Of a stretch of DNA of 64,000 nucleotides, positions 8,352 to 62,969 are shown in pieces. The number at the start of each line of letters is the position of its first letter. The stretch's first letter is position 1. The stretch covers positions 1-64,000 of the forward strand of contig RECU01000038.1 of assembly GCA_007693855.1 (NCBI GenBank). The letters are read 5' to 3'. The notes beneath the pieces were generated by a model. It did not search any database and was not told the origin of the DNA. It saw only the letters and a list, made by a program, of their open reading frames with translations. This DNA is from Gammaproteobacteria bacterium. Lineage in GTDB: Bacteria; Pseudomonadota; Gammaproteobacteria; Steroidobacterales; PWYM01. Both the position numbers and the translations under genes were made by a program.

Positions 8352-10052
8352 ATGAGCACCGATCACTTCGATACCCACCGCAAGCGCCTTGAAGACGCAC
8401 AGGCCGCGCTGGCCACGCGCAGCGCCCACACGGCGTTTCGTGAATCCCCCAGCACCCGGGTGCATGGTGAGGAAGCACCACGCGCCGGCAAAGCTGCCTT
8501 CGAGGCCCGGCTGGGGCAGCGCTTCGCGATCGATCAACCCGGCACCATCGACTGGATCGGCGAGGAAATCTCGCCCTATACCGGGGAGGCCCTGGGCATC
8601 AGCTACCCGCGCTGTGACGTCGATACGCTGTTCGGTGCGGCCCGCGCGGCCATGCCGGCCTGGCGTGACGCCGGCCCGCGCGCGCGGGTGGGCCTGTGCC
8701 TGGAGATGCTGGCGCAGCTGGCGGACCGGGCGTTCGAGAATGCCCATGCCGTGATGCACACGGCCGGACAGAGCTACGCCATGGCCTATGCGGGCTCCGG
8801 GCCGAACGCGCTCGACCGCGGGCTCGAGGCCCTGGCGCTCGCCTGGCAGGCGCAGCAGCAGGTGCCCGGCGAGGCCCGCTGGCAGAAGCGCTTCGGCAAG
8901 GATGAGGTGGTGCTGGAAAAACGCTACCGGATCATGCCGCTGGGCCCTGCCGTGGTGTTCTGCTGCGCCACCTTCCCGACCTGGAACGCCCATCCCGCGA
9001 TCTTTGCCAACCTCGCCACCGGCAATCCCGTGCTGGTCAAGCCACATCCCGGCTGTGTGCTGCCGATGGCGATCACGGTCGAGACGCTGCGAAAAGTCCT
9101 TGCAGACAATGGCCACGACCCGAACCTCGTACAGCTGTGCGTCGACTCCACCACCGCGCCACTGGGCAAGGTGCTGGTCGAGCATCCCCAAGCGGCCATC
9201 ATCGACTTCACCGGCAGTGCGCGGTTCGGCAGCTGGGTCGAGGCGCATGCCGGGGGGCGGCCCTGCTACACCGAAACCTCGGGCGTGAACTCGGTGGTCA
9301 TCGAGTCCTGCGATTCGCTGCCGGCCATGGCGGCGGCCATCGCCGGCTCCGTCTGCCTGTTCTCCTCGCAGATGTGCACCAGCCCGCAGAACATCTACGT
9401 GCCTGCCGGTGGCATCGACAGCGCCGCCGGACACCATTCGGCCGACGAGGTGCGCGCCGCCATCGTCGCCGCCATCGACGCGATCGCCGAGGCCCCGGCG
9501 CGGGCGGCCAGCGTGATGGGCACGATCCAGTCCCGCGACACCCTGCGGCTCATCGAGCACTGGCAGCAGCGCGGCGCCGAGGCGGGCACGGTGCTCAGGC
9601 GCTCGGCGGCCTACCTGCATCCGGAGCATCCGCAGGCCTGGACGGCGACGCCGCTGGTCATCGGCCTGGGCATCGATCGCCACGAACTGTATTCCGATGA
9701 GGTGTTCGGGCCGATCGCCTTCATCATCGAGGCAGCCGACGCCGACCAGGCACTCGCCCAGGCCACGCGTGACGCCCGCGAGCACGGTGCCATCACGGCG
9801 TTTGCCTACTCGGCCAACGAGGCCTGGCTGGAACGCGCGGAGGCCGCGTTCGCCGAAGCCGGCGCCGCACTGACCGAGAACCTCACCGGCGCCATGCCCC
9901 TGAACTTCGCGGCCGCCTACAGCGACCTGCACGTCAGCGGCTTGAACCCGGCAGGCAATGCCAGTCTCGCCGACTGGTCGTTCGTCGCCGGGCGCTTCCG
10001 CATTGCCCAGGCCAGGCGGCCGGTATCGGCCCGCGCGCAAGCCGCGGGCTGA
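8352..10052 (+). CDS. paaN: PaaN-like aldehyde dehydrogenase family protein (phenylacetate degradation PaaN type)
   Basis: 566 aa; GPAVVFCCATFPTWNAHPAIFANLATGNPVLVKPHP...FTGSARFGSWVE...CLFSSQMCTSPQNIYV. Confidence 0.7.
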   Translation: MSTDHFDTHRKRLEDAQAALATRSAHTAFRESPSTRVHGEEAPRAGKAAFEARLGQRFAIDQPGTIDWIGEEISPYTGEALGISYPRCDVDTLFGAARAAMPAWRDAGPRARVGLCLEMLAQLADRAFENAHAVMHTAGQSYAMAYAGSGPNALDRGLEALALAWQAQQQVPGEARWQKRFGKDEVVLEKRYRIMPLGPAVVFCCATFPTWNAHPAIFANLATGNPVLVKPHPGCVLPMAITVETLRKVLADNGHDPNLVQLCVDSTTAPLGKVLVEHPQAAIIDFTGSARFGSWVEAHAGGRPCYTETSGVNSVVIESCDSLPAMAAAIAGSVCLFSSQMCTSPQNIYVPAGGIDSAAGHHSADEVRAAIVAAIDAIAEAPARAASVMGTIQSRDTLRLIEHWQQRGAEAGTVLRRSAAYLHPEHPQAWTATPLVIGLGIDRHELYSDEVFGPIAFIIEAADADQALAQATRDAREHGAITAFAYSANEAWLERAEAAFAEAGAALTENLTGAMPLNFAAAYSDLHVSGLNPAGNASLADWSFVAGRFRIAQARRPVSARAQAAG

Positions 10053-10064
10053 CCCCTGCAGCCC

Positions 10065-10092
10065 TTGCTTTGTGCAGCGCCGGGCGTATGAT
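10065..10092 (+). promoter_or_regulatory. Candidate sigma70 promoter for the C39 / ATP-grasp / GCS2 operon
   Basis: TTGCTT-16 nt-TATGAT, 42 nt upstream of the ATG at 10134. Confidence 0.5.
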
Positions 10093-10133
10093 CCGCGCAC
10101 GCGCGCTGTTGCCGTATTGCCGGTGGCACCCTC

Positions 10134-23482: not shown

Positions 23483-24313
23483 TCAGCCGCGCGGTTCGAC
23501 GAAGAAATCCGGGGCGAGCTCGGCGTCGGGATCCACGGCATAGGACGTGAGATCGGTGATGCCCACCGATTCCAGCACTTCATCATCGACGCAGAAATGG
23601 CCGGTGAACTCACGCGCGGGACGCGTGAGGATCACATGGGCCGCATCGGCCATGATCTCCGGTTTGCGCGAGCGACGAACCAGCTCGTCACCGCCGATGA
23701 CGTTGCGGATCGCCGCCGTGGCGATGGCCGTACGCGGCCACAGCGCATTGAAGGCGACACCCTGGCCGCGGTACTCCTCGGCCATGCCGAGCACGCACAG
23801 GCTCATGCCATACTTGGCCATACTGTAGGCCACGTGCGGCGCAAACCACTTCGCCTCGAAGTTCAGCGGCGGCGCCAGGTTCAGCACGTGCGGGTTGTCC
23901 GCCGCGAGCAGGTGCGGCAGGCAGGTTTTCGAGACCAGGAAGGTGCCGCGCAGATTGATCTGATGCATCAGATCAAAACGCTTCATGTCGGTCTTGAGCG
24001 TCGGCGTGAGCGAGATGGCGCTGGCGTTGTTCACCAGGATATCGATCCCGCCGAAGGCCTCGACGGTGGCAGCGACTGCCGCCTCGACCTGAGCCTCGTC
24101 GCGGATGTCGCAGACCAGTGGCAGGGCCTTGCCCCCGGCCGCTTCGATCTCCCGGGCAGCGGTATGGATGGTGCCCGGGAGTTTCGGATGCGGCTCGGCG
24201 GTCTTGGCCGCGATCGTCACGTTGGCGCCGTCGCGGGCCGCGCGGCAGGCGATGGCCAGGCCGATGCCTCGACTGCCACCGGTGATAAAGACTGTCTTGC
24301 CAGCGAGACTCAT
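23483..24313 (-). CDS. SDR family oxidoreductase (HSDL2-like)
   Basis: MSLAGKTVFITGGSRGIGLAIACRAARDGANV; NNASAI; YSMAKYGMS. Confidence 0.9.
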   Translation of the reverse strand: MSLAGKTVFITGGSRGIGLAIACRAARDGANVTIAAKTAEPHPKLPGTIHTAAREIEAAGGKALPLVCDIRDEAQVEAAVAATVEAFGGIDILVNNASAISLTPTLKTDMKRFDLMHQINLRGTFLVSKTCLPHLLAADNPHVLNLAPPLNFEAKWFAPHVAYSMAKYGMSLCVLGMAEEYRGQGVAFNALWPRTAIATAAIRNVIGGDELVRRSRKPEIMADAAHVILTRPAREFTGHFCVDDEVLESVGITDLTSYAVDPDAELAPDFFVEPRG

Positions 24314-25500: not shown

Positions 25501-26375
25501 CGCTGGAGACTCCGTTGTGTCACTGGGGAAGCCCGTGTCGGCGGCGCCGACGAGGCGAGAAACTCGAGGACCGCGGCAGTGAAACGGTCATTACGATCAC
25601 CGGCCACCATGTGCGCGGCATCGCTGACCGACGCGTAGCGGGCGTGGGGCACCAGCGCGAGAAAATCCCGGGCGCCCGCCTCGCTCAGCACGTCGCTCAG
25701 GCCACCCCGCACCAGCAGGGTCGGCTGGTGCAGGCGCGCGGCTGCGGCGCGCAGCCGCGGCTCCCAGGCCTCGGGAGGCTCGGCGCGCGCGGCGTGCAGA
25801 AAGCGCGGATCCCAGTGCCAGTACCAACGTCCGTCCTCGCGGCGACGCAGGTTCCGGGCCAGACCCGCACTGCGGGCGGGACGCGGCCGGTGTGGCAGGT
25901 AAGCCGCCACCGCCGCAGCCGCCTCATCAAGACTGCTGAAGCCGTCGTCATGCGCCTCCATGAACGCCAGCACGCGATCGACACCATGCGGCTCGGGCCG
26001 CACCGCGATATCGACCAGCACCAGGGCCTCGACGCATTCCGGGGCCAGTTCGCCGGCCACCATCAGCGCGGCCAGTCCACCGAGCGAGGCACCCACCAGC
26101 ACCACCGGTTGCGCAAGGCTGCGGACCGCTGCGGCAAGATCCTCGCCGTAGCATTCGAGCCGGTAGTCCTGCTCCGGCGGTGCCCAGTCGCTGTCGCCAT
26201 GACCGCGCTGGTCAATGGCGATGGCCTGCCACCCGGCCGTGGCCAGACGGGCGGCGGTCGGCCCCCAGGCATGGCGGGTCTGGCCACCCCCGTGGAGCAG
26301 CAGCACCGGCAGACCGTCGCCGACACACTCGCCGGCAAGGCGCAGGCCATCGGCGCCCGGCAGGCTCAAATTCAC
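25497..26375 (-). CDS. Alpha/beta hydrolase
   Basis: VLLLHGGGQTRHAWGPTAARL, VLVGASLGGLAALM, DAAHMVAGDRNDRFT; ATGA overlap with neighbours. Confidence 0.9.
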   Translation of the reverse strand: MNLSLPGADGLRLAGECVGDGLPVLLLHGGGQTRHAWGPTAARLATAGWQAIAIDQRGHGDSDWAPPEQDYRLECYGEDLAAAVRSLAQPVVLVGASLGGLAALMVAGELAPECVEALVLVDIAVRPEPHGVDRVLAFMEAHDDGFSSLDEAAAAVAAYLPHRPRPARSAGLARNLRRREDGRWYWHWDPRFLHAARAEPPEAWEPRLRAAAARLHQPTLLVRGGLSDVLSEAGARDFLALVPHARYASVSDAAHMVAGDRNDRFTAAVLEFLASSAPPTRASPVTQRSLQR

Positions 26376-27043
26376 TGACTGGCGCGGCTGCGCGCCGGCT
26401 GGGCCGACGGGGCGAGTTCGCGCAGCTTCTCCTCGAGGTAGGCCAACAGACGCCGATCACGCTCAGTCGGATCGTGGGTCATGAAACTCACGGCCATCCC
26501 CTCCATGAGGCAGCGCGAGAGATCGAGGGCCAGATCGAAGGCCTCGGGATTATCCTTCCACTCCGGAAACACCTCCCAGGCCGTCTGGTGCCAGGCCTCA
26601 TCGAAGGCGGCCTGCGCCGGCTGCAGAATCGAGCGCAGCTCGGCGTCCGTGCGGGCGGCGACTGAGAGCTCGAAAAAAGCCATGAACCAGGGGTGATTGA
26701 CCTGCTGCCAGTACGCCTCGACGCTGAAGCGCACGCGGTCCTCGTCGGGACCGATGGCGGCCACCGCCCGGCGAAAGGCCTTCAGGCGCTTGGCGTGCAG
26801 ATAGTCGACGGCGGCACGCACGATGTCGATCTTGGAAGGAAAGTGATGCAGCATCGCACCCCGCGACAGTCCCGCCATCTCGGCGATCCGTGTCGTGGTG
26901 GTCTGGGCATAACCAAGTTCGACGAAACAGCGGATGGCCGCCTCGATGATCAGCCCTCGCGTTGACGCGCTTTTCTGGGCCTGCCAGCCCCCGCTGACGA
27001 CCTCTTCCTGGCGCCGCGCAACGCGCTGGTTGCGCTTGCTCAT
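26372..27043 (-). CDS. TetR/AcrR family transcriptional regulator
   Basis: GLIIEAAIRCFVELGYAQTTTTRIAEMAGLSRGAMLHHFPSKIDIVRAAVDYL. Confidence 0.92.
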   Translation of the reverse strand: MSKRNQRVARRQEEVVSGGWQAQKSASTRGLIIEAAIRCFVELGYAQTTTTRIAEMAGLSRGAMLHHFPSKIDIVRAAVDYLHAKRLKAFRRAVAAIGPDEDRVRFSVEAYWQQVNHPWFMAFFELSVAARTDAELRSILQPAQAAFDEAWHQTAWEVFPEWKDNPEAFDLALDLSRCLMEGMAVSFMTHDPTERDRRLLAYLEEKLRELAPSAQPARSRASQ

Positions 27044-27140
27044 GACCTGTCTCTCCCCTGCACGCCCGTCTGAGGTGGGGCGGTGTGACAAGAGTGTCGC
27101 GGAGACCAGGAAAAGTCAAAGATGATTGAAACCAGCACGC

Positions 27141-27157
27141 CTGACTGCTAGCGTCAG
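27141..27157. promoter_or_regulatory. Candidate operator in the TetR / SDR divergent intergenic region
   Basis: CTGAC-TGCTAGC-GTCAG inverted repeat. Confidence 0.35.
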
Positions 27158-27206
27158 CGCCGGTCGCAGCATACCGCTGCATCATCACACAGTCAGGGGG
27201 AGAATC

Positions 27207-27971
27207 ATGGGTCGCGTACAAGGCAAGGTCGCATTGATCACCGGAGCCGCCTCCGGTCTTGGCAAGGCGGACGCAGAACTGCTGGCCGCCGAGGGCGCCG
27301 ATGTGGTGGTGACCGACGTCAACCTCGAAGCCGCCGAAGCCGTGGCCGAGGCGATCAACGCCCGCGAGGGCGGCCGCGCGCTGGCGCTGGCACTCGACGT
27401 GCGTGACCAGAGCGCATGGGCGGACGCTGTTGCCGCCGCCGAGAGCCGCTTCGGCGGGCTCGATGTGCTGGTCAACAACGCCGGAGTAGTGATCGTCGCC
27501 ACCCCGGAAGACACCACACTCGAGCAGTTCCGCTTCGCCAATGCGGTGATGAACGAGGGTGTGTTCCTGGGCATCCAGGCCGCCCTCCCGGCGATGAAAA
27601 AGCGCGGCGGTGGCTCGATCATCAACATGTCGTCAGTCGCCTCGCACCTGGGCTATCCGGTATTTTTTGCCTATACGGCAGCCAAGGGCGCGGTGCGCAG
27701 CATGACCAAGTCGGTGGCGGTGCACTGCCAGATGAACGGTTACAACATCCGCGTGAACTCGATCCACGCCGGGGCTATCGAGACGCCGATGATCGCCACC
27801 GCCAACGCCGCGCTTGGCGTCTCCGATGAAGACGCCAAGGCGGCCTCAGGCCACGTCGGCGTGGGCAAGCCCGAAGACGTGGCCTGGATGGTGGTGTATC
27901 TCGCCTCCGATGAAGCCCGCTTCGTCAACGGCGCGGAACTCATGCTGGACAACGCGCTGACGGTGCAATAA
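27207..27971 (+). CDS. SDR family oxidoreductase (3-alpha/20-beta HSD-like)
   Basis: MGRVQGKVALITGAASGLGKADAELLAAEGADVVVTDVN; NNAGVV; YTAAKGAV. Confidence 0.92.
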   Translation: MGRVQGKVALITGAASGLGKADAELLAAEGADVVVTDVNLEAAEAVAEAINAREGGRALALALDVRDQSAWADAVAAAESRFGGLDVLVNNAGVVIVATPEDTTLEQFRFANAVMNEGVFLGIQAALPAMKKRGGGSIINMSSVASHLGYPVFFAYTAAKGAVRSMTKSVAVHCQMNGYNIRVNSIHAGAIETPMIATANAALGVSDEDAKAASGHVGVGKPEDVAWMVVYLASDEARFVNGAELMLDNALTVQ

Positions 27972-28022: not shown

Positions 28023-28340
28023 TCACTCCTCGGGTGCGATGGTCAGGCGAATCCCGTCGAGCGCTTCGGTGAACTCCACCTGGCAGGTGAGCCGGGATGT
28101 CTCGGCGCGATAGCTCTCACCCTCGGCGAGCAGCTCCTCCTCGTCGTCCTGGCGACGCGGCAGCTGCGCAAACCAGGCCGGCTCGATGTAGCAGTGGCAG
28201 GTGCAGCAGGAGCACATGCCACCGCACAACGCTTCCACGCCATTCTCGAGCTCACGCAGGGTTTCCATGATGGACAGGCCAACCTTGCCGTCCACCTCGT
28301 GGGTCGCGCCTTCGCGATCCGTCACGATCATCTTTGCCAT
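28023..28340 (-). CDS. 2Fe-2S plant-type ferredoxin
   Basis: MAKMIVTDREGATHEVDGKVGLSIMETLRELENGVEALCGGMCSCCTCHCYI...SRLTCQVEFTEALDGI. Confidence 0.9.
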   Translation of the reverse strand: MAKMIVTDREGATHEVDGKVGLSIMETLRELENGVEALCGGMCSCCTCHCYIEPAWFAQLPRRQDDEEELLAEGESYRAETSRLTCQVEFTEALDGIRLTIAPEE

Positions 28341-28387: not shown

Positions 28388-28405
28388 AAACAGTCAAGAC
28401 TGTTT
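28388..28405. promoter_or_regulatory. 18-bp palindromic operator candidate, copy 1
   Basis: AAACAGTC-AA-GACTGTTT; 20 nt before a -10-like TATACT (28426-28431); same arms recur at 62256-62273. Confidence 0.7.
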
Positions 28406-28526
28406 GTCCGCTTCCGCAGGCAGAGTATACTCGACCCGGAACGGTCGCGGCGTCGGCCGGAAGATACCAGTGTCACGCGGCGGCCGACAGCGCGCTGCCG
28501 CCAGGAACCACCAGGGGAGCACGCGC

Positions 28527-29288
28527 ATGGATCTCGGACTCAAGGGCAAGAAAGCCATCGTCACCGGCTCGACAAAAGGCATCGGCCGCAGGATCGTCGA
28601 CCTGCTGGCCGACGAAGGCGTCGACGTGGGCGTGTGTTCGCGCGACGAGGACGAGGTGGCCGAGACGGTTGCGGCGCTCAAGGCCAAGGGCGTCAATGCC
28701 GTGGGCGGCGCGGTCAACGTGCGCGATGGTGATGCCTACAAGGCCTGGCTCACCGCAACGGCCGAAGCCCTGGGCGGGGTCGACATCTTCGTGCCCAATG
28801 TCAGCGGCGGCGGCGGCATGGATTCCGAGAAGAACTGGTGGAAGTGCTTCGAGATCGACATCCTCGGCACCGTGCGCGGCGTGGAGACCTTGATGCCGCA
28901 GCTCGAGCAGTCCGAGGCCGCCGCGGTGGTGATCATCAGCTCCACCAACGCGGTCGAATTCTTTGCCGGTCCGATGGCCTACAACGCCATGAAAGCGGCG
29001 CTGCTGAACTACAGCAAGCAGCTTGCGCTGTTCGTCGCCAGGAAAGGCATCCGCGTCAATGCGGTCTCGCCAGGGCCCGTGTACTTCGAAGGCGGCGCCT
29101 GGGAGATGATCGAGGGCACGATGCCGGATTTCTACAAGGCCACCCTGAAGCAGATCCCCGCCGGGCGCATGGCCACGCCCGAGGAAATCGCCCGGGTAGT
29201 CGCCTTTGCGGCCAGCCCGGCGGGCAGCGTGCTGCAGGGCGCCAACATCGTGGCGGACCTCGGCTTCACCAACCGCGTGCAGTACTGA
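28527..29288 (+). CDS. SDR family oxidoreductase
   Basis: MDLGLKGKKAIVTGSTKGIGRRIVDLLADEGVDVGVCSR; YNAMKAALLNYSKQLA. Confidence 0.9.
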   Translation: MDLGLKGKKAIVTGSTKGIGRRIVDLLADEGVDVGVCSRDEDEVAETVAALKAKGVNAVGGAVNVRDGDAYKAWLTATAEALGGVDIFVPNVSGGGGMDSEKNWWKCFEIDILGTVRGVETLMPQLEQSEAAAVVIISSTNAVEFFAGPMAYNAMKAALLNYSKQLALFVARKGIRVNAVSPGPVYFEGGAWEMIEGTMPDFYKATLKQIPAGRMATPEEIARVVAFAASPAGSVLQGANIVADLGFTNRVQY

Positions 29289-29331: not shown

Positions 29332-30711
29332 ATGAACAAGCTGGACAAGGTCGAGGCCAGTTTCGTCCGTTCCTACGCGAAGCTGGATAAGGTTCGCGAG
29401 GTCAAGGTGCCCCGCGTCGACCCCGAGGACAGCCCGGAGACGCCAGCGGAGAAAGCTCCGGACCCGGAACTGGGCACCGAGGTCATCCCCGCGTCCCGTT
29501 ACACCAGCGCCGAATTCATGCGCCTGGAATGGGAACACATCTGGAGCAAGGTCTGGCTGCTCGGCTGCCGGGAAGACGACATCCCGGAGCCTGGCGACTA
29601 TGCCTGCACCGAGATCGGCCGCGAGTCGGTGCTGATCGTCCGCCAGCCCGACGGCGGCGTGCGCGCCTTCTACAACGTCTGCCAGCACCGCGGCAACCGC
29701 CTGCGCTCGCCCGGCTACGGCAGTGCCAACACCTTCAAGTGCTCGTATCATCACTGGGAATACCGGCTCGATGGCAGCATCGAGAACATTCCCGATGTCG
29801 ACACCTTCCCGCAGGGCGCGCCCTGCAAAGGCCTGACCGAGATCCCCTGCGACACCTGGGGGAGCTTCGTCTGGTTCAGCCTGAACCCGGCGGTCGAGCC
29901 GCTGCTGGCATTCCTCGACCCGATCCCGAAGCATCTCGAGGCCTACAATTTCTCGCGCATGGCCCTGACGCGTGACGTCACCATCGAGTGGCACTGCAAC
30001 TGGAAGGCCTCGGTGGATGCCTTCAACGAGAGTTACCATGTGCAGGGCATCCACCCGCAACTGCTCTGGTACCTCGACGACTACAACATCCAGATCGACT
30101 GCTACGCGCGTCACAACCGCTATCTCATCCCCTTCGCCACCATCAGCCCGCGGGTCAAGCTGCCACCGGACATTCCGCCCGCCATCAAGCACATCATGCT
30201 CGAGGCCGGCATGGATCCAGCCGACTACGATGGCAAGATCAAGGACCTGCGCGTGAACATCCAGAAATTCAAGCGCAAGCATGGCGCCGAACAGGGCAAG
30301 GACTATTCGCGGCTGAACGATGACCAGCTGACCGACGACTACCACTACATGATCTTTCCGAACGTCACACTGAACATCCACGCCGACGACCTGATGCTGT
30401 TTCGGCAGCGACCGCATCCCACCGATCCCGACAAGATGCTCTTCGACGTGCAGACCTACGAGCTGATTCCGGAGGGCGGTGAGTGGCCGGAGCGCCCGGA
30501 GCACGCCACCTATCCGCACGGCGACAAGTCCATCGGCCTGGTGCTTGACCAGGATGCCCACAACCTGCCCGGCGTGCAGCAGGGCATGCACTCGGCAGGG
30601 TTTCGTGGCCTGTGGCTGGGCAAGCAGGAACTGCGCATCCGGCATTTCCACAAGGTCATCGACGACTATATTTTCGGGCCGGGAGGCAAACCCGCCGACT
30701 CGGAGTTCTGA
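29332..30711 (+). CDS. Rieske-type aromatic ring-hydroxylating oxygenase, alpha subunit
   Basis: YNVCQHRGNRLRSPGYGSANTFKCSYHHWEYRLDG Rieske motif; WKASVDAFNESYHVQGIHPQL mononuclear iron region. Confidence 0.93.
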   Translation: MNKLDKVEASFVRSYAKLDKVREVKVPRVDPEDSPETPAEKAPDPELGTEVIPASRYTSAEFMRLEWEHIWSKVWLLGCREDDIPEPGDYACTEIGRESVLIVRQPDGGVRAFYNVCQHRGNRLRSPGYGSANTFKCSYHHWEYRLDGSIENIPDVDTFPQGAPCKGLTEIPCDTWGSFVWFSLNPAVEPLLAFLDPIPKHLEAYNFSRMALTRDVTIEWHCNWKASVDAFNESYHVQGIHPQLLWYLDDYNIQIDCYARHNRYLIPFATISPRVKLPPDIPPAIKHIMLEAGMDPADYDGKIKDLRVNIQKFKRKHGAEQGKDYSRLNDDQLTDDYHYMIFPNVTLNIHADDLMLFRQRPHPTDPDKMLFDVQTYELIPEGGEWPERPEHATYPHGDKSIGLVLDQDAHNLPGVQQGMHSAGFRGLWLGKQELRIRHFHKVIDDYIFGPGGKPADSEF

Positions 30712-32752: not shown

Positions 32753-33658
32753 TCAGGTCGCCTCGAGGGCATCGAAACGCCGGGCGAGATGGTCGACCAG
32801 CGCGCGCACCGACGGCAGCAGCCCCCGGCGCGAGGGGAACACGGCGTGGATGATTTCCGGGCGGGGGGCCCAACCCGGCAGCACTCTGACCAGCTGACCA
32901 CGCTCGAAAGGCTCGCCGAGGATCATCGTCGGCAACTGCACGATGCCCACGCCGGCCTCTGCCGCCGCACGCAGCGCGAGCATGCCGCGGGTAATCAGCC
33001 GCGGCTGGTGCTCGATGCGTGCCACGGCGCCGTCGGGTCCGACCAGGGTCCATGTCGCCCGCTGCTGCGGCGTGCCGAGCTCGAGACTGGGATAGCGCGT
33101 GAGGTCTGCCGGCACCCGCGGCGTACCTAGTGCCGCCAGCAGCCCGGGGCTGGCCACCAGACACTGCGCGCGGTCGCCGAGCACGCGCAGCACCAGGTCG
33201 CTGTCCTCCAGCGGCGGGGGGCGGACCCGGAGGGCGAGATCGACCCCCTCGCCCACCACGTCGACGCGCCGATTGGTGGCCTCCAGATGCAGCTCCACCT
33301 GTGGATGCAGGGCCAGAAAGTCCGCCAGCATGTCACCGACGGTGGCCTCGAGCAGCGTGACCGGACAGGTCAGCCGCACCACCCCGGAAGGCTCGGCACG
33401 GCTGCGGTCGATGGCCTCCTGCGCGGCCTCCGCCTGCACCAGCATCGCCTTGCAGTGGGTGTAGTAGGCGTAGCCGAGCTCCGTGACCGCAAGGCGCCGC
33501 GTCGTGCGCTGCAGCAGCCTGACGCCCAGGCGTGCCTCGAGCGCCGCGACCCGCCGCGAGAGCCGGGACTTCGGCACGCCAAGCGCCCGGCCGGCCGCGG
33601 CGAACCCGCCATGGTCGACCACCTGCACGAAGAAATAGAGGTCATTCAGATCCTGCAT
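32753..33658 (-). CDS. LysR family transcriptional regulator
   Basis: MQDLNDLYFFVQVVDHGGFAAAGRALGVPKSRLSRRVAALEARLGVRLLQRTTRRLAVTELG. Confidence 0.94.
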   Translation of the reverse strand: MQDLNDLYFFVQVVDHGGFAAAGRALGVPKSRLSRRVAALEARLGVRLLQRTTRRLAVTELGYAYYTHCKAMLVQAEAAQEAIDRSRAEPSGVVRLTCPVTLLEATVGDMLADFLALHPQVELHLEATNRRVDVVGEGVDLALRVRPPPLEDSDLVLRVLGDRAQCLVASPGLLAALGTPRVPADLTRYPSLELGTPQQRATWTLVGPDGAVARIEHQPRLITRGMLALRAAAEAGVGIVQLPTMILGEPFERGQLVRVLPGWAPRPEIIHAVFPSRRGLLPSVRALVDHLARRFDALEAT

Positions 33659-44165: not shown

Positions 44166-44197
44166 CAGGACGCTGCGCTCAAAGGCGCAGCGTCCTG
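44166..44197. terminator. Perfect 13-bp hairpin between convergent genes
   Basis: CAGGACGCTGCGC-TCAAAG-GCGCAGCGTCCTG; weak T-runs on either side. Confidence 0.65.
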
Positions 44198-59828: not shown

Positions 59829-60122
59829 TCAGGCGCCCAGGACGTCGAAGAACTGCAGATCCATCTCCTCGGCCAGGCAGTCGAGGATCGGCGGCACGAG
59901 CTCGTCATGGAAAGACGAGGCCATGTGCGCATCGAAGGCCGCCTGGTCCTTGAAACTCGAATACACCACGTAGGTGTTCGGCGCGTCCCGGTGGCGGATG
60001 AGGTCATAGACCAGCGTATCGGGCTCGTGCGCATGCGTGAGCTGCTTGAGCTTGATCTGCAGCGCCTCGAATTCGGCCGCCTTCTCGGGCTTGACCACCA
60101 GTTTCGCGATGAATGCCATCAT
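59829..60122 (-). CDS. ABM / putative quinol monooxygenase family protein, copy 1
   Basis: MMAFIAKLVVKPEKAAEFEALQIKLKQLTHAHEPDTLVYDLIRHRDAPNTYVVYSSFKDQAAFDAHMASSF. Confidence 0.85.
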   Translation of the reverse strand: MMAFIAKLVVKPEKAAEFEALQIKLKQLTHAHEPDTLVYDLIRHRDAPNTYVVYSSFKDQAAFDAHMASSFHDELVPPILDCLAEEMDLQFFDVLGA

Positions 60123-60143: not shown

Positions 60144-61802
60144 TCAGCCGGCCTGCTTCAGACCGAGCTCCTCGATGAGCCCGTCGCGCAACCGGAATTT
60201 CTGGATCTTGCTGGTGGACATCGGCCATTCGCGCACGAAACGCACATGGCGCGGCACCTTGAAGCCGGCAATCTGGCCCTTGCAGTAGTCGATGAGGGCC
60301 TGCTCGGTGACTTCTTCGCCGGTTTCGAGTTCGATGAAGGCCGCGGCCACTTCCTGCAGGCGCTCATCCGGCACGCCGACCACCTGGGCCAGCTTCACCG
60401 CCGGGTGGCCGGCCAGGAAGGCCTCGATCTCTGCCGCGGCAACGTTTTCCCCGCCGACCTTCAGCATGTCCTTGAGACGACCGTAGAACATGATCTGGCC
60501 TTCACGATCCAGCGAGCCGATATCGCCGGTGTGATACCAGCCCTCGGCATCCAGCGCCTCGGCCGTCTTCGCCGGATCCTTGTAATAGCCCTCGAAGAGG
60601 CTGTAACCGCGCACCAGGATTTCCCCGCGCGCGCCGGTCGGCATCTCGTCACCGCTGGCCGGATCGATGATCCGCACTTCCAGACCGGGCAGTGGCACGC
60701 CGAGCCGGCTGGTGCGCGCCGCCAGCGGATCGTCCAGGCGACTGGTACAGACGGTACCGGCCGTTTCGGTCATGCCGAAGGTGCCGACATAGACGGTATC
60801 GGGCATCGCCTTCAGCATCGCCTCCCGAATCCAGTCCGGTTGCACGGCGAAATTCGAATTCATCAGCCGGATGCGCGACAGGTCGGTCTTCTCGAAGTCA
60901 GGGTGCTTGATCAGATCCGCCATGATGGTGACGAAACAGGGATAGGTCGCGGTGACCTGCTCGCCCTCGAGCATCCCCAGCGCAACCCCGGCATCGAAAT
61001 GCGCCATGGTGAGGTAGGTGCCGCCCACGTCGAAGATCGACACCATCGGCAGGATGGCGGCGATATGGAACATCGGCAGCGGCGACCAGAAACGGTCTTC
61101 AGCGGTGAGCTGATAACGGTGCCGGCCGAGTGCGATGGAGTTGCGCACCATCGCCTCGTGGGTGATGGGGCAGCCCTTCGGATTGGCCGTGGTCCCGGAG
61201 GTATAGAGCATCAGTGCCGGGTCGCGCAGGCGAACGCGCGAGCGGATCTCCATGATCTCCTCATGCGCGATGGTCTCGGCGCGGGCACGGAAGTCGTCCT
61301 CCGGCAGGAAGCCCGGCGCCTGGTCGGGCCCCAGCAGTACCAACCGCCGCAGTTGCGGGGCCGTGGCGAGTGCCAGTGCCACGGGATCCGGCCCATCGGC
61401 GAGCTCGGGGAAGGCACCGGTCAGGCGCTCGACGAAATTCACATGATCGTTCACCCGCGAGGTGGTGATCACTGCGACGAGATCGGCGTTGCCGATGACA
61501 TAGGCCAGCTCGGCCGACTGGTAGCGGGCGTTGATCGGCACCGCCACCGCACCACACAGCGAGATCCCGAAAAACAGTTCCGGGAAATCCATGCAGGTGG
61601 GCATCAACAGGCCGACATGATCACCCGGTGCCACCCCCAGCGCGCGCAGCGAGCGCGCGTGGGCCAGCGCACGCTCGGCGAGATCGCGATAGTTGACCCG
61701 TTCCTCCGGAAAAACGATGGCGTCGGTGGCCGGGTAGTGTTCCGCAGCCTGCAGCAGCAGGTCACCCAGCGTGGTGACGTTGATCCAGGGCGTCTTCGAC
61801 AT
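60144..61802 (-). CDS. AMP-binding acyl-CoA synthetase / ligase
   Basis: LMLYTSGTTANPKGCPITHEAMV, GWYHTGDIGSLDREGQIMFYGRLKDMLKVGGENVAAAEIE. Confidence 0.94.
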   Translation of the reverse strand: MSKTPWINVTTLGDLLLQAAEHYPATDAIVFPEERVNYRDLAERALAHARSLRALGVAPGDHVGLLMPTCMDFPELFFGISLCGAVAVPINARYQSAELAYVIGNADLVAVITTSRVNDHVNFVERLTGAFPELADGPDPVALALATAPQLRRLVLLGPDQAPGFLPEDDFRARAETIAHEEIMEIRSRVRLRDPALMLYTSGTTANPKGCPITHEAMVRNSIALGRHRYQLTAEDRFWSPLPMFHIAAILPMVSIFDVGGTYLTMAHFDAGVALGMLEGEQVTATYPCFVTIMADLIKHPDFEKTDLSRIRLMNSNFAVQPDWIREAMLKAMPDTVYVGTFGMTETAGTVCTSRLDDPLAARTSRLGVPLPGLEVRIIDPASGDEMPTGARGEILVRGYSLFEGYYKDPAKTAEALDAEGWYHTGDIGSLDREGQIMFYGRLKDMLKVGGENVAAAEIEAFLAGHPAVKLAQVVGVPDERLQEVAAAFIELETGEEVTEQALIDYCKGQIAGFKVPRHVRFVREWPMSTSKIQKFRLRDGLIEELGLKQAG

Positions 61803-61816
61803 CGTGTGCTGGCCCG

Positions 61817-62125
61817 TCACGGCTCGAGGGGGTCCAGGTACTCGCGCACGTAGGGTCCGTCCAGGCAATCGACCAGACCGGGCGCCAGCGCCTTGAAGTG
61901 CTCGGTGTTCTGGTGCTCGTGCTCGGCCTGCTCACTGGTGAACGATTCCACCACGGCAAAGCGGTGGGGCTCGCGCAGACGATAGAACTGGTAGATCAGT
62001 GTGTCGGGCTCGTGCGCGTGCACCTTTTCCGTGAGCGCCTTGGCCAGGCGGATGAACTCCGCTTCCTTCTCGGACTTGACGGTCATGCGGGAAATGAAAG
62101 ACATGCGTGCGGTCTGCTCGCTCAC
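61817..62125 (-). CDS. ABM / putative quinol monooxygenase family protein, copy 2
   Basis: MSFISRMTVKSEKEAEFIRLAKALTEKVHAHEPDTLIYQFYRLREPHRFAVVESFTSEQAEHEHQNTEHFKAL; alternative start 62104. Confidence 0.85.
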   Translation of the reverse strand: MSEQTARMSFISRMTVKSEKEAEFIRLAKALTEKVHAHEPDTLIYQFYRLREPHRFAVVESFTSEQAEHEHQNTEHFKALAPGLVDCLDGPYVREYLDPLEP

Positions 62126-62255
62126 GGCCTGGCTCCTCGGTCAAAGGTCTCGCCGAATTGCGGAGCGCGTGCCGCGATCGTGACCCGGCCAGTCCGCCGC
62201 CATCACGCCCTCCCCCAAGAGTGTGCCGATCATAGCACCGCGCTGCCCGCCGAAG

Positions 62256-62273
62256 AAACAGTCATGACTGTTT
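62256..62273. promoter_or_regulatory. 18-bp palindromic operator candidate, copy 2
   Basis: AAACAGTC-AT-GACTGTTT, 21 nt before a minus-strand -10-like TATGAT (62229-62234). Confidence 0.7.
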
Positions 62274-62309: not shown

Positions 62310-62969
62310 CTAGCGGTACTCGACTTCCAGCTGCCACTGGTCGCGCGGCTGCACGTGCAGCTTCCAGTACTCCTCGGCGATCGTGTCCGGGTCGAAGCGG
62401 GTGCCGGGATTGATGTGGTCAAAGATGGTCACCGTGGCCACGTGCACGTCGTGATACGCCAACTCGCGGGCCAGGCTGAAACAGAGGTTCCGCAGCCCGG
62501 CCTTGCCGATCCCCAGGGCCGCTACCTGCACCGGAGGATCTATGGCGGATCCCCCCCCGGTGAACAGAATAGTGCCGCGGCGCTTGTAGCGCATGTCGGC
62601 GACGACCTGGCGGACGCAGTGCAGCGCACCGACGACGTTGACGCGCACACTGTCCAGAACATCGAGTTCGGTCAGCAGGCTGGGGGCGCTGGTGCGGCGC
62701 AGAAAGGCGTTGAAGATGAGCACTTCCGGCGCGCCATGGTCCTGTCCGATCCGCTGGAAGGCGGTTGCCACCGCCTTGCGATCCGTCACGTCGGCGACGT
62801 AGGCGGAACACTCGATCCCCTCTTCGCGGAGCTGCTCCTGGATCTCGCTCAGGCGCGCCGCCGTGCGCCCGAGCATCGCCACGTGGAAACCCTCGCGCCC
62901 GAACCGACGGCACAGGGCCAATCCCATGCCGGGGCCGACGCCGGCGATCGCACAGACTTTCTTGTCCAC
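62310..62969 (-). CDS. SDR family oxidoreductase
   Basis: MDKKVCAIAGVGPGMGLALCRRFGREGFHVAMLGRTAARLSEIQ. Confidence 0.85.
   Translation of the reverse strand: MDKKVCAIAGVGPGMGLALCRRFGREGFHVAMLGRTAARLSEIQEQLREEGIECSAYVADVTDRKAVATAFQRIGQDHGAPEVLIFNAFLRRTSAPSLLTELDVLDSVRVNVVGALHCVRQVVADMRYKRRGTILFTGGGSAIDPPVQVAALGIGKAGLRNLCFSLARELAYHDVHVATVTIFDHINPGTRFDPDTIAEEYWKLHVQPRDQWQLEVEYR

Follow-up and report, generated by a model that had tools for sequence, protein, structure and literature searches.

KstR and KstR2 are TetR-type regulators of the cholesterol catabolism regulons of mycobacteria (PMC3068626), and EdcR, the TetR-type estrogen repressor of Caenibius tardaugens, was found to repress because an edcR deletion strain grows faster on the substrate (PMC8700777). 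CymR, the helix-turn-helix repressor of the cumate switch, governs two aromatic-degradation operons, p-cym and p-cmt, via similar operators (PMC1654148). In this work, we have analyzed a 64,000-nucleotide stretch of DNA (the window), which forms part of contig C41 (76,996 bp) in a draft gammaproteobacterial genome of 3.28 Mb and 114 contigs, and we describe a palindrome shared by several promoters of catabolic genes. Sequence comparison makes it likely that the TetR-family regulator encoded at 26372..27043 (minus strand) binds this palindrome and thereby controls genes for Rieske oxygenation, CoA activation, and uptake jointly, most likely through repression relieved by an inducer.

Two copies of AAACAGTC-NN-GACTGTTT are present in the window: at 28388..28405 on the plus strand, as AAACAGTC-AA-GACTGTTT (AAACAGTCAAGACTGTTT), and at 62256..62273 on the minus strand, as the fully palindromic AAACAGTC-AT-GACTGTTT (AAACAGTCATGACTGTTT). 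An earlier note on this DNA had reported two identical palindromes here, with 8-bp arms and a 2-nt spacer, which proved exact to the base, and its -10-like boxes are where it had placed them: TATACT (28426..28431, plus strand), 20 nt beyond copy 1 in the SDRa-Rieske promoter, and TATGAT (62229..62234, minus strand), 21 nt beyond copy 2 in the ABM-ligase-ABM promoter. The gene neighborhoods that it described were also recovered. Copy 1 separates a divergent 2Fe-2S ferredoxin gene (28023..28340, minus strand; TIGR02007, E=2.3e-10, below cut-off) from SDRa (28527..29288, plus strand; domain search), the first gene under this operator, and from RO1, a Rieske oxygenase alpha subunit of the Ring_hydroxyl_A type (29332..30711, plus strand; PF00848, E=1.4e-30, and PF00355). 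Copy 2 precedes three minus-strand genes, namely ABM-like monooxygenase 1 (61817..62125; called from its ORF and translation, with a congener ortholog under a site), an AMP-binding acyl-CoA ligase (60144..61868; PF00501, E=1.4e-75), and ABM monooxygenase 2 (59829..60122; PF03992), and SDRd (62310..62969, minus strand; domain search) ends just upstream of it. In alignments, the footprint of copy 1 is kept in three congeners with diverged flanks, and copy 2 is identical at 18/18 positions in three congeners; the -10 segments AGTATACT (copy 1 promoter) and GCTATGATC (copy 2 promoter) are each invariant in four species. At both promoters, the operator and the -10 are kept and the spacer between them drifts.

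Other inverted repeats were seen in the window, including many palindromes with 8-bp arms, a perfect 22-bp palindrome, TTGATCTGATGCATCAGATCAA, at 23955-23976 within an SDR gene, and a strong intergenic hairpin at 44166-44197 (13-bp arms, 6-nt loop) that is possibly a terminator.

A scan of the whole 3.28 Mb genome with the relaxed motif AAACANNCNNGNNTGTTT gave four exact matches, all on C41 (28388, 62256, 67714, and 76234), plus a near-match with one mismatch at 76109; the reversed motif, used as a control, gave 0 exact matches in the same genome. All four exact matches fall in promoters at catabolic genes rather than at random or intragenic positions, as the earlier note had expected of such a scan. 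The sites at 67714, 76109, and 76234 lie just beyond the window, between a GST-like gene (minus strand) and a Rieske/ketosynthase/thiolase/SDR operon (plus strand) and between a TonB receptor gene (minus strand) and a third Rieske gene (plus strand). The site-bearing promoters on C41 are those of ferredoxin/SDR-Rieske, ABM-ligase-ABM, GST/Rieske-ketosynthase-thiolase-SDR, and TonB receptor/Rieske, and each of the three Rieske alpha genes on this contig carries a site. The third is truncated by the contig end at position 76996, and the regulon may therefore continue elsewhere in the assembly. With a position weight matrix trained on the five C41 sites and those of relatives, the five sites, which are thus within the training set, scored 22.6-37.5, and no other position on the contig exceeded 2.9. 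Contig C18 has weaker sites ahead of two further Rieske genes. One, AATCAAACGAGACTGTTT, is 66 bp upstream of the ORF and is kept at 18/18 positions in two congeners with changed flanks; the other, the weaker of the two, precedes a paralog of RO2. C18:203222, at a distance of 34 bp from the Rieske gene that follows it, is poorly conserved in congeners, and we keep it only as a possible site; C75:78335 (AAACAAGCGTGACGGTTT), with no regulon gene nearby, was left aside.

Together, the target genes encode an acyl-CoA ligase, Rieske oxygenases with ferredoxin, SDRs, a thiolase with a ketosynthase/ChsH2-like protein, and a TonB receptor, and an acyl-CoA dehydrogenase gene adjoins them. This set suggests import of a ring compound, its CoA activation and oxygenation, and thiolytic cleavage of a side chain or ring; no substrate could be identified from the PDB and NCBIfam matches.

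The protein encoded at 26372-27043, the probable binder of the operators, carries a TetR_N helix-turn-helix (PF00440, E=1.1e-13, above the curated cut-off). Its predicted structure (pLDDT 83) is all-helical, with TetR proteins as the best Foldseek matches among solved structures (Rv0078, EthR2, EilR, AmtR, and FadR; E to 9e-6, TM ~0.5-0.6), and the model resembles ligand-binding TetR repressors in general. The named NCBIfam TetR equivalogs (ScbR, FasR, BetI, AcrR, RutR, MftR, PsrA, and FadR) all scored far below cut-off, matching mainly the N-terminal HTH.

Putative palindromic operators adjoin the gene of this regulator in many genomes, as would be expected of a TetR/AcrR protein, and its own intergenic region holds a tandem pair. 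Divergent from it lies SDRb, a short-chain dehydrogenase gene (27126..27971, plus strand; adh_short/adh_short_C2) whose real start is probably near 27208, and around the annotated start are two degenerate plus-strand operators, A (27110..27127, GAAAAGTCAAAGATGATT) and B (27129..27146, AAACCAGCACGCCTGACT), with a 19-bp period conserved over several families. Operator B scored 2.2 and operator A weaker still, versus 22-37 at the target sites, which speaks against the proposed model; in Woeseiaceae, both tandem copies are near-consensus. A possible SDRb -10, TAGCGT (27149..27154, plus strand), would start 21 nt beyond operator A, leaving operator B to fill the promoter spacer. The tandem suggests weak autoregulation or control of SDRb.

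A second TetR gene lies on contig C50 of the same genome (locus L158:8973-9687, also L159 and L160), and its product is 51% identical to the 26372 TetR. Its cluster comprises SDRs, acyl-CoA dehydrogenases, and a TonB receptor, with a site, AAACAAATCAACCTGTTT, that is identical in three species. The conserved AAACA-N8-TGTTT site at the paralog's own operon differs in its inner bases (AAACA-AATCAACC-TGTTT), and the cluster probably forms a sister regulon whose operator has changed in its inner bases.

The palindrome and the 26372 TetR travel together. Three congeners (G001, G003, and G004) have sites before the same genes as the window genome, and a fourth genome of the genus (G002) has neither motif nor TetR ortholog. 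Among 296 genomes of the order, scored for TetR orthologs at E<=1e-40 (40 genomes) and for the motif AAACANNCNNGACTGTTT (36 genomes), 35 have both, 5 only the TetR, 1 only the motif, and 255 neither (p=6e-39), counts that are not independent because the genomes are related by descent. The association also holds within genera (both/TetR only/motif only/neither: 6/0/1/56 in g6, 4/1/0/17 in g30, and 5/0/0/4 in g33). Two of the TetR-only genomes, G192 and G254, have a diverged site, AAACCGTCAGGCTTGTCT. G132 was set aside as a case of motif without TetR, being a probable chance match with no labelled regulon gene beside it. At Rieske loci, a site is present in 29 and absent from 15 with the TetR nearby, versus 4 and 28 with none nearby (p=5e-6). 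Plasmid clusters of Paracoccus and Niveispirillum that lack the TetR have 0 sites; the Croceicoccus plasmid pCME4A9I and the Sphingobium plasmid pBSY17_1 carry the TetR module and 8 sites each (<=1 mismatch) in 31 kb. Since the motif occurs almost only where the TetR gene is present, across hundreds of genomes, it is very probable that this TetR governs all of the site-bearing promoters.

Woeseiaceae, Steroidobacteraceae, and other Gammaproteobacteria show the same arrangement, TetR - SDRb - ferredoxin - site - SDRa - RO1, and Sphingomonadales have related blocks with shifted half-sites (e.g., AAACAT[TGA]C). In two loci, L085 and L097, ABM-ligase-ABM lies just beyond RO1 with its own site, which supports the proposal of the earlier note that the two window clusters form one split pathway. 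The sites thus stand at promoters of linked genes and are conserved together with the factor, as in a multi-operon regulon. Across the class, the exact motif was found in 3/369 genomes, the window's own included. The sole match outside the order, in the unrelated gammaproteobacterium G495, is a site (L265:8110-8127) upstream of a TRAP-transporter operon. One gene of this operon codes for a TetR (9371-10099) whose recognition helix, SRGALLHHYPSK, is close to SRGAMLHHFPSK of the 26372 TetR, the two proteins being 27% identical. On these sequences, G495 is an independent link of the recognition helix to the palindrome, and the operator would there be used for a different transport system.

To describe promoter geometry, we used 119 non-redundant sites with 237 flanks. 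Strong -10-like boxes start 16, 17, 18, 19, 20, and 21 nt beyond the site in 7, 8, 28, 6, 41, and 22 cases (112 counts in 237 flanks), with peaks at 18 and 20-21 nt, and are rare elsewhere. This clustering implies that the palindrome spans about -50 to -33, in line with the overlap with the expected -35 region that had been noted at the two window copies. When a -35 is sought at 16-18 bp spacing, the best match is just 2/6 in 46/63 promoters, which is poorer than the shuffled expectation. Among asymmetric one-sided sites, the promoter-facing half has TTG over CTG in 26/28 (the sequences are related and any p-value is only a guide), which suggests that sigma also reads these bases.

We propose that a TetR dimer, possibly a pair of dimers, binds the 18-bp AAACA-N8-TGTTT over the -35 region of the SDRa/RO1, ABM-ligase-ABM, GST/RO2-ketosynthase-thiolase-SDR, and TonB receptor/RO3 promoters, and would also bind the weaker tandem operators between the TetR and SDRb genes. 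When the substrate is absent, bound TetR most likely bars RNA polymerase from these promoters; TetR would be released by the compound once imported, or by an intermediate derived from it, and the genes for uptake, for CoA activation and ring oxygenation, and for thiolytic cleavage would be turned on together. The earlier note had assigned both clusters to one repressor, possibly of TetR type: shared control by the 26372 TetR is strongly supported, given the clustering of sites, their intergenic placement, the footprints, and the co-occurrence in 296 genomes, and repression is favored rather than shown.

How sure one can be of each part of this model depends on what else could read or explain the palindrome. 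A chance or non-regulatory element, such as a hairpin, a terminator, or a mobile-element end, has in its favor that short palindromes are common, those with 8-bp arms abounding in the window, but only 0.07 matches at <=3 mismatches were expected there from shuffles, and 0/100 shuffles held two. The sites are, moreover, conserved across families at promoters and not at gene ends, and only 2/119 lie within a labelled gene, both apparently over-extended GST start calls; with the co-occurrence and footprints also contradicting it, we regard this account as scarcely credible. It is a good deal less far-fetched, yet still improbable, that another regulator reads the sites and that the 26372 TetR is a mere neighbor. 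A LysR-like gene lies near RO1 (32753-33658), and the C50 paralog, which has a similar recognition helix and whose operon carries an AAACA-N8-TGTTT site, could cross-bind, which counts against the 26372 TetR as the sole binder. The paralog's site, however, differs inside, and paralogs of 50-52% identity (E<=1e-40) occur only in G000 (the window genome), G001, and G004, whereas genomes such as G013, G046, and G120 have the TetR ortholog together with the motif; the palindrome is of the kind that TetR proteins bind, and the 26372 TetR has tandem copies of it in its own intergenic region. The identity of the regulator is strongly supported on computational grounds.

The sign of control is a closer matter. 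With no consensus -35 and a site centered near -41.5, the 26372 TetR could be a class II-type activator that recruits RNA polymerase to promoters without a proper -35, one palindrome driving one or two divergent promoters with its promoter-facing half tuned to TTG. The clustering of the -10-like boxes and the poor -35 matches fit such a role, and promoters under simple repression do not usually have so weak a -35 at normal spacing, which counts against repression. Most TetR-family proteins, however, are repressors; operator B would sit between the -35 and -10 of SDRb, the distance from site to -10 varies over 6 bp, and the TTG preference points to sigma reading the promoter-proximal half. On the family prior, the SDRb spacer, the TTG bias, and the position of the operator on the -35 region, repression is favored, and we consider activation unlikely, though worth keeping in view. 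If true, class II activation would set this regulator apart from the usual TetR protein, and many gammaproteobacterial families would have retained this mode.

With repression by the 26372 TetR as the preferred reading, the analysis gives a probable regulator, its operator, and a target list (several Rieske oxygenases, SDRs, ligase, thiolase, and TonB receptor) for a catabolic pathway found repeatedly in uncultured Gammaproteobacteria and also in Sphingomonadales, large plasmids included. In any genome that carries the pathway, its remaining genes can be sought by means of the operator, and a reporter made from the TetR and its promoter could reveal the inducer and, through it, the substrate. 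In the open-access literature, we found no earlier description of the motif or of a TetR + Rieske regulon; the regulon is apparently undescribed before and of a known kind.

Ibuprofen (ipf) type pathways comprise a CoA ligase, a Rieske oxygenase, a thiolase, and an OB-fold protein, and are like the present regulon in the kinds of enzymes, a likeness of enzyme kind and not of sequence. CymR belongs to the TetR family, and the letters of its operator are presumably similar to those of the present palindrome. It resembles the proposed system as a helix-turn-helix repressor that acts through similar operators at two aromatic-degradation operons (PMC1654148). PheR was dropped as a comparison, being of the IclR family (PMC13273656). 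KstR and KstR2 offer the same TetR-type control of a catabolic regulon, in other bacteria and with other targets (PMC3068626), and the 26372 TetR matches KstR2 (PDB) over the HTH only (E about 1.5e-5). EdcR is likewise a TetR protein, and several promoters within a single catabolic cluster carry its related palindromes, but its operator, TnnCnnTACnAnTnGTAnnGnnA, lies over the -10, whereas AAACA-N8-TGTTT here lies over the -35 (PMC8700777).
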